DNA of 42,914 nt from Shackletoniella antarctica (GTDB taxonomy: Bacteria; Cyanobacteriota; Cyanobacteriia; Phormidesmidales; Phormidesmidaceae): positions 1-42,914 of the forward strand of contig QBMN01000011.1 of NCBI GenBank assembly GCA_003241845.1, written 5' to 3'. The notes under the pieces were generated by a model that saw nothing but the letters and a program-made list of their open reading frames with translations, was not told the origin of the DNA and searched no databases. Made by a program: the position numbers and the translations under genes. Below are positions 31,713-35,522 of the stretch, piece by piece (the first letter of the stretch is position 1; each line of letters begins with the position of its first letter).

Positions 31713-32492
31713 CTACTCTCTTGCCCTCAGCTTTGCCCCAGTGCGCAAAATCTGCCCGGCCAGCACCGCTGCCCCAAAGCCATTGTCGATGTTGACCACG
31801 CCAATGCCCGTCGCGCAGGAGTTGAGCATGGTGAGCAGGGCTGAGAGACCGTTGAAGCTGGCCCCATAGCCAATGCTGGTGGGCACCGCCACAATTGGGC
31901 AGTCGGACAGGCCCGCCACCACGCTGGGCAATGCCCCCTCCATGCCCGCTACCACAATCAGCACGTCCACATCGCGAATGAGCTGGCGGTGGCGCAGCAG
32001 GCGATGCAGACCCGCCACCCCCACATCCCACAGGCGCTTGACCGCAAAGCCAGACAGTTCGGCAGTAACGGCGGCTTCTTCGGCTACTGGCAAATCGGCG
32101 GTGCCTGCGGTCAGCACACCAATGCTGCCGGGGCGGTGAGCTGACAAGTTTAGGGGCACCAGGGCGCAGATGCGGGCCATGTCGTAGTACAGCGCCGCCG
32201 GGATTTGCTGCTGAATCTGAGCAAACACCTCTGGCTCGATGCGGGTGGCCATGACTACGGGGTTTTGCTGGTGCAGGCTGCGCATGATCTGCACAATCTG
32301 GTGCACTGTTTTGCCCGGCCCCCAGATCACTTCAGGGAACCCGGTTCTCAGGGTACGGTGGTGATCAACCTTGGCAAAATCGTCGATGGGTTCGAAGTCG
32401 AGGTATTTGAGCTGGTCAAGGGCCGCTTCGGGGCTGAGCTGCCCTTGGGAAACGGCGTTGAGCAAAACGCGCAGAGCATCGGGCTGGGTCAC
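31713..32492 (-). CDS. larB: Nickel pincer cofactor biosynthesis protein LarB
   Basis: A 259-residue LarB, the PurE-like enzyme that carboxylates and hydrolyses nicotinic acid adenine dinucleotide to pyridinium-3,5-biscarboxylate mononucleotide, first step of the nickel-pincer cofactor. The N-terminal region contains DQLKYLDFEPIDDFAKVDHHR and GFPEVIWGPGKT, both family hallmarks, and the C-terminal PurE-like domain contains GVLTAGTADLPVAEEAA, WDVGVAGLHRLL and VVAGMEGALPSVVAGL, VPTSIGYG. Length is normal. No larC, larE or lactate racemase gene is adjacent, as is common in cyanobacteria, where larB stands alone. ATG 32492 starts the conserved N-terminus closely. Confidence 0.95.
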   Translation of the reverse strand: MTQPDALRVLLNAVSQGQLSPEAALDQLKYLDFEPIDDFAKVDHHRTLRTGFPEVIWGPGKTVHQIVQIMRSLHQQNPVVMATRIEPEVFAQIQQQIPAALYYDMARICALVPLNLSAHRPGSIGVLTAGTADLPVAEEAAVTAELSGFAVKRLWDVGVAGLHRLLRHRQLIRDVDVLIVVAGMEGALPSVVAGLSDCPIVAVPTSIGYGASFNGLSALLTMLNSCATGIGVVNIDNGFGAAVLAGQILRTGAKLRARE

Positions 32493-33315: not shown

Positions 33316-34257
33316 CTAATCGTAGATATTGGCGGCCTTAAGCATGTGGAAAGTAATCAGCAGCTGGGTCAGGGCTAGGGGATAGCTTTGCAGGGTCTCG
33401 CCCGTGGTGCCCACCACCTTGCCGATGTCGGTGTTGCCCTCAATGCTGCAAAATTTGCCCAGGTAAGGAACTTCGCTGCACAGGGTGCGCTCTAGCTCCT
33501 GGACGGGCTTCTCGGTGGCGTGGCCGTCGATTTCGAGCACGTCAACGGGTTTGCCCATGTCGCGATCGAGGCCGAGGCGCACCGCATCGCTGAGGGAGCC
33601 GCCGTTTTTATCGCCCAGCAGGTGGGTAAAGTCGGGGTGGGGAATAGTGGGCCGCATCACTAGGCGCACGTTGAGCAATAGCTCGTCTTCAGTCTTTTCG
33701 TTGTCGGGGGGGTAAAAGCTCACCACCACGTCGGCCCACTGGCGCTGGGGGCGAATAAATGCTTCAGAGTCTGGTTCTCGCGCTTCGATCTGCTTGATCA
33801 CCTCTTCGGGGGTGTAGCCCCGCTTGCGGGTGTCGCGCTTGATCTTCCAGTTGGCGCGCAGGTCTTCGGGCGGGGCCAGGTAGACTTTGATATCGTAGGC
33901 GTCGCGGCAGGCGCGGGTTGAGTAGCCCAGCAGCCCCTCTGCAATCACAAACCGCCTGGGCTCGATGTATTCGGGGGCATCAAACTCGCCGGTGGTGTGG
34001 TTGTAGATGGGCTTGAGAATGGGCTGCCCGGTGCGCAGCAGGCCCAGGTGCTGCTGAATGATATCGACGTAATTGCAGTCGGGGTGCAGGGCCGAGATGC
34101 CCATTTCTTTGCGCTGTTTGCGATCGTAGCGGTGATAGTCGTCCGTGCAGATGGTGGTGACCTGGTCTTCACCTAAAATCTGCGCAATGCCTCGCGTCAG
34201 GGTGGTCTTACCTGCTGCGCTATCACCCACAATGCCGAGGATAATCGGACGACTCAT
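33316..34257 (-). CDS. Phosphoribulokinase/uridine kinase-family protein (PRK paralogue)
   Basis: A 313-residue P-loop kinase of the PRK family. Walker A is GDSAAGKTT (11-19), followed by TICTDDYHRYDRKQRKEMG, then YNHTTGEF and FVIAEGLL. Cyanobacterial Calvin-cycle PRK has GDSGCGKST and CLDDYHS, where Cys19 and Cys41 form the redox switch. Here the first Cys is Ala15 and only the second (Cys37) remains, so thioredoxin/CP12-type regulation of that kind is impossible. Sequence differs from the canonical enzyme in many places (ADVVVSFYPPDNEKTEDE). It is likely a second PRK-like enzyme with ribulose-5-P or another sugar or nucleoside substrate (uncertain). A good Shine-Dalgarno (GGAG) precedes ATG 34257. 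No Calvin-cycle gene is nearby. Confidence 0.8.
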   Translation of the reverse strand: MSRPIILGIVGDSAAGKTTLTRGIAQILGEDQVTTICTDDYHRYDRKQRKEMGISALHPDCNYVDIIQQHLGLLRTGQPILKPIYNHTTGEFDAPEYIEPRRFVIAEGLLGYSTRACRDAYDIKVYLAPPEDLRANWKIKRDTRKRGYTPEEVIKQIEAREPDSEAFIRPQRQWADVVVSFYPPDNEKTEDELLLNVRLVMRPTIPHPDFTHLLGDKNGGSLSDAVRLGLDRDMGKPVDVLEIDGHATEKPVQELERTLCSEVPYLGKFCSIEGNTDIGKVVGTTGETLQSYPLALTQLLITFHMLKAANIYD

Positions 34258-34509: not shown

Positions 34510-34930
34510 ATGGATTTCCTCAACTCATCTGCTGCCTTGAATAGTCCAGCGACCTCGCCTGACCTGCCAGAGTTGCTGGCCCCGGCAGGCAACTGGGACT
34601 GCACCAAAGTGGCCTACTCGGGCCAGTGCTTAACGAGTGAGGCGCTGGGCGGGCGAGGTCGGCCAACCGAGGGGAGCGTGCCCAGGCCTGCTGCATGCCC
34701 TACGACCTGATCGCCGATGGGAAAAAGTTGGATTTGGGCAATTCCGGGACGGATCGCTCTGCGGATCGCGGCTACCTGCTCAGCCCCCAAGACCTCTCGG
34801 GCTTGGATGTACTGCCCGAACTCATCGGGATCGGGGTAAGCCGCCTCAAAATTGGAGGCCGCCTTAAAGCGCCGGAATACGTCGCCAACGTTACCCGCAT
34901 TTACCACGAGACATTGGAACGCCACCCCAT
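34510..34930 (+). pseudogene. Peptidase U32 (RlhA/YhbU-like) pseudogene
   Basis: The first 30 codons read like the U32 N-terminus (LPELLAPAGNWDC) and then jump to a segment normally near residue 170-200 (VAYSGQCLTSEALGGR), so roughly 150 codons are missing. A frameshift near 34655 follows, then the frame continues ANRGERAQACCMPYDL.. with Arg in place of a conserved Cys, ..YLLSPQDLSGLDVLPELI.. and KAPEYVANVTRIY, where it ends. The C-terminal half of the about 400- to 800-residue protein is gone. It carries deletion, frameshift and truncation, so is not functional; an intact homologue elsewhere in the genome is likely. Confidence 0.88.
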
Positions 34931-34961: not shown

Positions 34962-35522
34962 CTAACGCACCCGCTTAAGCTGGTAGTTGGCTTCTTCTAG
35001 GTCAAACAGCTCCGAGTCAAACTGACCACCGACCCACTCCAGCATTTCGTCATGTTCAGGGTGTTTGGGATCTCGAATGATCTCTAGAAAATCGGCATAA
35101 CCCCACACGCCGCCGCAGTCTTCTGGGGGGCACGCCCGTTTGCCCTTAATGCAGACCGGGTAGCGAGTTTCTGGGTCGGGAGGCAAAATTTTCTCCACCA
35201 AAATTTCGTGATCCCAGCCGTCGCCCATGTCGTAGACATAGACGAACTTAAACTTTTCTTTGGTGACAAACTGATTGAGGCGGATACGTTGTTCGTTGAG
35301 CAGGTCTAAATCGTACTCTGGCATGGGCTGACCGTAGGTTTGCCCACCCACCTCAAACTCGTGCAGGTGACAGTCATACCAACCCATGGCCAGCTGAATA
35401 ATCTTGTGGAGCTTCGCCAGGGTAATATCGCTGGGCACCTGCACCCGTCGCCAGATGGGCGGGCGCGCATTTCTTAAGGTAATTTTGAGCTGATAGACTG
35501 GCTGATTGCTGAGTTTGGCCAT
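34962..35522 (-). CDS. Plasmid pRiA4b ORF-3 family protein
   Basis: A 186-residue protein of the pRiA4b ORF-3-like family (PF07929). The hallmark segments are all there: YQLKITLRNARPPIWRRVQV, TLAKLHKIIQLAMGWYDCHLHEF, VYDMGDGWDHEI and CIKGKRACPPEDCGG(V)WGY, then the C-terminal HPEHDEMLEWVGGQFD. The function is not established. The Cys/Asp cluster in ACPPEDCGG looks like a metal site, but this is a guess. It starts at ATG 35522 and is divergent from the gene at 35644. Confidence 0.9.
   Translation of the reverse strand: MAKLSNQPVYQLKITLRNARPPIWRRVQVPSDITLAKLHKIIQLAMGWYDCHLHEFEVGGQTYGQPMPEYDLDLLNEQRIRLNQFVTKEKFKFVYVYDMGDGWDHEILVEKILPPDPETRYPVCIKGKRACPPEDCGGVWGYADFLEIIRDPKHPEHDEMLEWVGGQFDSELFDLEEANYQLKRVR

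Follow-up and report, generated by a model that had tools for sequence, protein, structure and literature searches.

The phosphoribulokinase (PRK)-family gene at positions 33316 to 34257 of the window, by which we mean the whole 42,914-nt stretch of Shackletoniella antarctica DNA that was analyzed, encodes a second PRK, csPRK, which is kept beside a canonical prk and lacks all but one of the four canonical redox cysteines. We put at roughly two in three the probability that csPRK is an active ATP-dependent ribulose-5-P (Ru5P) kinase, one that would be out of reach of the switches known for PRK, thioredoxin and CP12. The Ru5P chemistry is strongly inferred, since the family of the protein, its predicted fold, its orthology to csPRK proteins of known structure, and its retention of catalytic and Ru5P-contact residues all argue for this activity. 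Accounts of how light governs the Calvin cycle in cyanobacteria (e.g., the accessible part of PMC9978339) treat PRK as a single enzyme, oxidized and CP12 bound at night.

A PRK-family gene beside the canonical prk

The gene and the residues discussed below are located in the window as follows.

33316..34257, minus strand: csPRK, a 313-aa phosphoribulokinase-family protein (open reading frame, PF00485, NF005655, PDB matches, and fold Z scores)
34204..34227, minus strand: P-loop GDSAAGKT, residues 11 to 18, with Ala15 at the position of canonical C19 (sequence and alignment)
34147..34149, minus strand: Cys37, counterpart of canonical Cys41, without its canonical disulfide partner (Cys in 110/110 loci)
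34138..34140, minus strand: Asp40, counterpart of the catalytic base Asp58 of AtPRK, as mapped by alignment (invariant in a 45-sequence alignment and in 23/23 csPRK paralogues)
34075..34077, minus strand: Cys61, invariant; Ala in canonical PRK, and also Cys in the Mycobacterium and Allomeiothermus PRKs (alignment)
33997..33999, minus strand: His87, counterpart of AtPRK His106 and MhPRK His100, a residue of the dyad and a contact of the Ru5P phosphate (invariant in 45 sequences and in 23/23 paralogues)
33478..33480, minus strand: Cys260, invariant across csPRK proteins; replaced by Trp in both chemotroph PRKs and by a gap in canonical PRK (alignment)
33448..33450, minus strand: Cys270, invariant across csPRK proteins; another residue in canonical PRK and in both chemotroph PRKs (alignment)

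The open reading frame starts with ATG and encodes 313 aa. Its product matched the Pfam PRK domain (PF00485) with an E value of 6.9e-41 and, at 456.4 bits, exceeded the curated cutoff of 236 for the NCBIfam phosphoribulokinase model NF005655 (PRK07429). The scores against the class I (bacterial-type) PRK model NF011997 (40.3 bits; cutoff, 362) and the uridine kinase models NF004018 (109.4 bits; cutoff, 180) and TIGR00235 (98.3 bits; cutoff, 220.3) all fell below the respective cutoffs; together with the residues described below, these family scores led us to reject a uridine kinase or class I PRK identity. Comparisons with seven close relatives gave dN/dS values of 0.039 to 0.085, which, with the constancy of the P-loop in 110/110 loci, exclude a chance open reading frame or a decaying gene. 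The gene is thus strongly constrained. Across 20 genomes, the mean pairwise identity was 74% for csPRK versus 78% for canonical PRK.

The host genome comprises 4.71 Mb in 287 contigs, with the window lying on contig G000:C22. The sequence-only reading had taken the gene for a probable paralogue, a view that would have failed had no other prk existed in the genome and this one been the Calvin cycle enzyme. A canonical prk was found: the sole other PF00485 match in the genome, at L001:1474-2478 on contig G000:C232, encodes a 334-aa protein with the P-loop GDSGCGKS and both cysteine pairs. Since the genome thus holds a second, canonical prk, the gene at 33316 to 34257 is a paralogue. The two proteins match the same NF005655 model, have the catalytic dyad and Ru5P contacts in common, and are identical at 110/311 aligned positions; they differ in that the canonical protein has C19/C41, C230/C236, and a longer clamp loop, whereas csPRK retains the C41 counterpart only. 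A second RuBisCO was considered as a partner for csPRK and set aside, because the host genome has one RuBisCO large-subunit match; it has two CP12 matches.

The closest proteins of known structure are cyanobacterial. A sequence search of the PDB with csPRK returned 9qkn (E = 1.3e-162) and then 9qko and 9qkp (E = 7.5e-162), all released on 2026-04-08, from Gloeocapsa PCC 73106 (9qkn) and Hyella disjuncta/Chroococcidiopsis PCC 6712 (9qko and 9qkp). Their depositors titled them "Structure of the cyanobacteria specific PRK," while the molecule name of 9qkn_A is "Uridine kinase." The window protein is 73 to 77% identical to them over nearly the full length and has GDSAAGKT in common with them in the alignments listed, and the only difference seen was sequence drift; it is their orthologue. 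The family was therefore already known through these entries, and the window contributes a further member. A search of the open-licence PMC literature found, among the matches listed, neither a paper on the three entries nor any account of the enzymatic activity or cellular function of the family. What we add here is the loss of three of four redox cysteines, the persistence of named Ru5P residues, new invariant cysteines, and a branch held in common with two PRKs from chemotroph Calvin clusters.

The predicted fold agrees with this placement. An AlphaFold model of csPRK (mean pLDDT, 84.0) matched 9qko, 9qkp, and 9qkn with Z scores of 38.0 to 38.8, archaeal PRK with 28.6, and Arabidopsis PRK with 28.2, while class I PRK (1a7j) scored 21.0, the same Z score as that of uridine kinase 3w8r. 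The model could be aligned over 279 to 305 residues with csPRK and with plant-type and archaeal PRKs and over ~200 residues with uridine kinases. The archaeal match, Methanospirillum hungatei PRK (5b3f), aligned over 279 residues and, by our mapping onto the accessible part of its description, has the same Ru5P-contact residues as csPRK; the two proteins differ in being only 31% identical, and our trees took in no archaeal PRK.

Redox cysteines and substrate-contact residues

We compared residues in an alignment of 23 csPRK paralogues, 23 canonical cyanobacterial PRKs, four udk proteins, and two PRKs from chemotroph plasmids, naming the canonical pairs C19/C41 and C230/C236 by the numbering of the genome's own canonical prk. 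The sequence-only reading had pointed out that the P-loop reads GDSAAGKT instead of GDSGCGKS and that only the later cysteine, Cys37, is kept, and both observations agree with the sequence. Among 110 paralogue loci, including that in the window, the P-loop was GDSAAGKT in 108 and GDSAAGKS in 2. At the C19 column, all 23 csPRK proteins have Ala and all 23 canonical PRKs have Cys; at the C41 column, Cys is present in 23/23 csPRK proteins. The earlier count of one missing cysteine was correct for C19 and too low overall: all 23 csPRK proteins have a gap at the C230 column, the C236 column is Cys in 0/23, and the clamp loop that carries this pair is 12 columns shorter in the window protein, so that C19, C230, and C236, three of the four redox cysteines of the canonical enzyme, are absent from every one of the 23 paralogues.

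With three of the four regulatory cysteines absent, neither disulfide of the redox-regulated plant-type (class IA) PRKs could form, and the known thioredoxin switch would thus be unable to inactivate csPRK in the dark. The C-terminal disulfide of PRK has been postulated to be important for assembly of the GAPDH-CP12-PRK complex (PMC9978339, accessible part), and the missing cysteines make it probable that CP12/GAPDH sequestration would also fail to switch csPRK off. We infer that the known switches, as described for the canonical enzyme, would not work on csPRK. The paralogues have an invariant set of cysteines, with C37, C61, C260, and C270 all being Cys in 110/110 loci.

The catalytic residues named for PRKs are retained. 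In the accessible parts of the sources, the catalytic dyad of AtPRK is Asp58 and His106 (PMC9978339), and in M. hungatei PRK, His55, Arg59, Arg62, Tyr98, His100, and Lys151 contact Ru5P or its phosphate, while Arg154 contacts ATP (PMC5241800; Kono et al. 2017). By our mapping, these M. hungatei contacts correspond in order to csPRK H42, R46, R49, Y85, H87, K138, and R141. These seven residues and D40 are identical in 23/23 csPRK proteins, 23/23 canonical PRKs, and the PRKs of both chemotroph plasmids. At six of these eight positions, csPRK differs from the four udk rows (40, 42, 46, 49, 87, and 138); Y85 and R141 are common to udk as well and have no power to discriminate. One nearby motif is changed: canonical EGLHP reads EGLLG in csPRK, and canonical H114 is replaced by Leu110 in 23/23 paralogues, which means that the substrate pocket differs from the canonical one. 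Leucine also occupies this position in 4/4 udk rows and in the Mycobacterium and Allomeiothermus PRKs; since the latter two belong to RuBisCO clusters, Leu110 by itself is no sign of lost PRK activity.

Relatives in RuBisCO clusters outside the cyanobacteria

The best of 67 matched plasmid records was a Mycobacterium intracellulare subsp. chimaera plasmid (NZ_CP012886.2), whose PRK, WP_069954220, is 44% identical to csPRK over residues 3 to 309. This protein scored 279 and 269 bits against the csPRK structures and 154 bits against the best canonical PRK. Its gene lies in an rpe-tkt-PRK block, with FBA, both subunits (large and small) of form I RuBisCO, and cbbX encoded about 6 to 9 kb away. 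Like csPRK, it has GDSAAGKT and Cys61 and no clamp-loop cysteine pair; it differs in having Ser at Cys37, in lacking C260 and C270, and in being encoded in a Calvin cluster. The gene for a second relative, WP_013159592, immediately follows those for form I RuBisCO and CbbX on the Allomeiothermus silvanus plasmid NC_014213.1. This protein resembles csPRK in having Cys37 and Cys61, no P-loop cysteine, and no clamp-loop pair, and it differs in its P-loop (GDSGAGKT), in the absence of C260 and C270, and in its position beside RuBisCO.

Both plasmid proteins score above the PRK model cutoff, and neither has the P-loop cysteine. A Calvin cycle kinase without dark inactivation had been judged surprising in the sequence-only reading; this expectation fits oxygenic phototrophs, and the absence of the P-loop cysteine extends to these two chemotroph-plasmid PRKs.

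Phylogenies placed csPRK and the Mycobacterium and Allomeiothermus PRKs in one clade, with support of 99/95 in a 59-row tree and 98/95 in a 51-row tree, and a canonical PRK clade that excludes csPRK was recovered with support of 100/98 and 89/95, respectively. The deeper branching differs by outgroup: an approximately unbiased (AU) test rejected the grouping of csPRK with canonical PRK with one outgroup set (59 rows; P = 0.005) but not with another (51 rows; P = 0.25). Within the clade, csPRK joins the Mycobacterium PRK first in the 59-row tree (96/67); in the 51-row tree, the Mycobacterium protein pairs instead with that of Allomeiothermus, both being long branches. Grouping of csPRK with long uridine kinase-like proteins was rejected (P = 0.02). 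These results support a tie between csPRK and the PRKs of chemotroph RuBisCO clusters as sampled in two plasmid records, and they suggest that the label "cyanobacteria specific" fits the orthologue group and not the wider branch that includes these two plasmid proteins.

A phage origin of csPRK was also considered and rejected; tblastn against a phage collection returned five records with query coverage of at most 57% and identity of at most 32.8%.

Other features of the plasmid records were observed. On the Mycobacterium plasmid, hydrogenase maturation genes (hypC-like, hypD, hypE, and hypF) lie beside the RuBisCO cluster (L153:1-6054), an arrangement suggesting that the plasmid carries a gene block for autotrophic growth on hydrogen. 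A separate family of proteins of about 680 to 720 aa with a PRK/uridine kinase-like domain is encoded on E. coli, Hirschia, and Azospirillum plasmids (L154, L155, and L157) and at loci L135 to L138. On the three plasmids, its genes adjoin GtrA, glycosyltransferase, and phospholipase C-like genes, and five proteins of this family form their own clade in the 59-row tree.

Distribution, gene neighborhood, and candidate roles

Orthologues of csPRK were found in 78 of 386 sampled genomes of the phylum (65 to 80% identity, plus the window's own). Besides the orthologue, each of these 78 has a second or third query match, which was a canonical PRK in 20/20 genomes examined. Among the genomes listed, csPRK occurs in 42/42 of family f7, 11/11 of f11, and 0/17 of f6; it is present in 15 and absent from 14 of the 29 same-class families listed, counts that cover listed genomes, with 31 unlisted genomes without a match that may belong to any family. 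Its absence from 14 listed families indicates that the Calvin cycle as such can run without csPRK. A scan of named GTDB contigs yielded 293 relatives; the best 80 of these 293 were taken further, and their record titles include Nodosilinea, Leptolyngbya, Tolypothrix, Spirulina, Okeania, and Xenococcaceae. Distances among csPRK and canonical PRK proteins of 20 genomes with both genes were weakly correlated (Mantel r = 0.18, with 492 of 10,000 permutations as high), and for this reason strict vertical descent of csPRK is not claimed.

We clustered the open reading frames around csPRK in these 80 loci (the best 80 of 293), of which 65 extend to at least 10 kb and 33 to at least 20 kb, so that some flanks are short. 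Queries with the RuBisCO large subunit (the genome's own and that of Mycobacterium), the Mycobacterium RuBisCO small subunit, CbbX, FBA, Rpe, and Tkt gave no tblastn match in any of the 80 loci at an E value of 1e-10. The commonest neighbor cluster, a peptidase U32 gene, occurs in 14/80 loci. With no Calvin gene nearby and no neighbor more frequent than this, the genomic context is silent on the role of csPRK in cyanobacteria. Among the examples listed, the most frequent neighbor families are those of Nodosilinea-like loci. Pfam assignments for ten representatives from 24 listed neighbor clusters were peptidase U32, rhodanese, M23 peptidase, deacetylase, hydrolase, ABC exporter, Dfp flavoprotein, RadC, rotamase, and LapA.

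The evidence also bears on other functions for csPRK. A sugar-phosphate kinase that kept its phosphate-binding and catalytic residues and changed its substrate, to ribose-5-P, xylulose-5-P, sedoheptulose-7-P, or glucose-6-P, would account for the EGLLG motif with its udk-like leucine in all 23 paralogues; the canonical PRK still in the genome would leave the copy free to change, and the lack of Calvin neighbors in the 80 loci would fit as well. We consider such a change unlikely, because the RuBisCO cluster PRKs of Mycobacterium and Allomeiothermus have the same leucine and because all listed Ru5P contacts are kept. The stand-alone position of the gene would equally suit a catalytically idle homologue with a regulatory or scaffold function, for example in mixed dimers with canonical PRK, and so would the further match in each of the 78 genomes and the canonical PRK in all 20 examined. 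Low dN/dS is compatible with both activity and idleness, but the Walker A motif, the catalytic Asp and His, and every listed contact are invariant, which would be unexpected in an idle enzyme and makes this explanation improbable.

A nucleoside kinase of the uridine/cytidine kinase type is scarcely credible. It could draw on the common PF00485 domain, the molecule name of 9qkn_A, and the residues Leu110, Y85, and R141, which are as in udk. Against it stand scores of 109 and 98 bits, below the model cutoffs of 180 and 220, the divergence of the four udk rows at D40, H42, R46, R49, H87, and K138, and the fold, which aligns with PRKs over 279 to 305 residues versus ~200 for uridine kinases. The sequence-only reading had considered another role probable for the paralogue. 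As another substrate, this is not supported and is judged unlikely, given the invariant Ru5P residues (23/23) and the location in RuBisCO clusters of the nearest noncyanobacterial relatives found; a separate role could lie in regulation, timing, or cell type.

On the reading that we prefer, csPRK would belong to a group of PRKs separate from the canonical plant-type enzyme, would convert Ru5P to RuBP, and would stay on in the dark, with neither canonical disulfide formed and with the thioredoxin switch, and probably CP12/GAPDH sequestration, ineffective. It is conceivable that csPRK supplies RuBP, or drains Ru5P, while canonical PRK is locked, and that it might be used in the dark, at the dark-light transition, under oxidative stress, or in a special cell state. 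A new thiol switch on C37/C61 or C260/C270 might also exist. A wider proposal, which we regard as possible but doubtful, is that many cyanobacteria (15 of the 29 same-class families listed) have a second, switch-free route to RuBP through a PRK like those of chemotroph clusters, active when thioredoxin and CP12 shut the canonical enzyme, such that RuBP formation would not be strictly light gated and might answer to a new switch on these same cysteine pairs. If many cyanobacteria do hold a switch-free second PRK, the formation of RuBP in the dark, the futile use of ATP, and what becomes of Ru5P at night would need reexamination there, and model strains without csPRK would be poor guides.

Several observations concern single loci. 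In a further genome, G153, whose canonical prk is open and lies on a different contig, a csPRK copy (contig C143, L144, at about 15.2 to 16.1 kb) lies in four pieces in three frames with 60 to 82% identity, consistent with gene decay or with errors in sequencing. In the window, the plus strand at 34567 to 34922 holds the remains of a peptidase U32 gene as three short pieces in two frames, matching residues 55 to 70, 226 to 241, and 241 to 329 of a 912-aa homologue, with the intervening part missing; this homologue is PF01136 (Peptidase_U32) and belongs to the cluster found beside csPRK in 14/80 loci. Adjoining these remains, a plasmid pRiA4b ORF-3-like protein is encoded at 34962 to 35522 on the minus strand (PF07929; E = 5.9e-77). 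The second gene downstream of csPRK, at 31713 to 32492 on the minus strand, encodes an AIR carboxylase-domain protein (PF00731), a homologue of which lies 1.6 to 1.8 kb downstream of csPRK in 13/80 loci.
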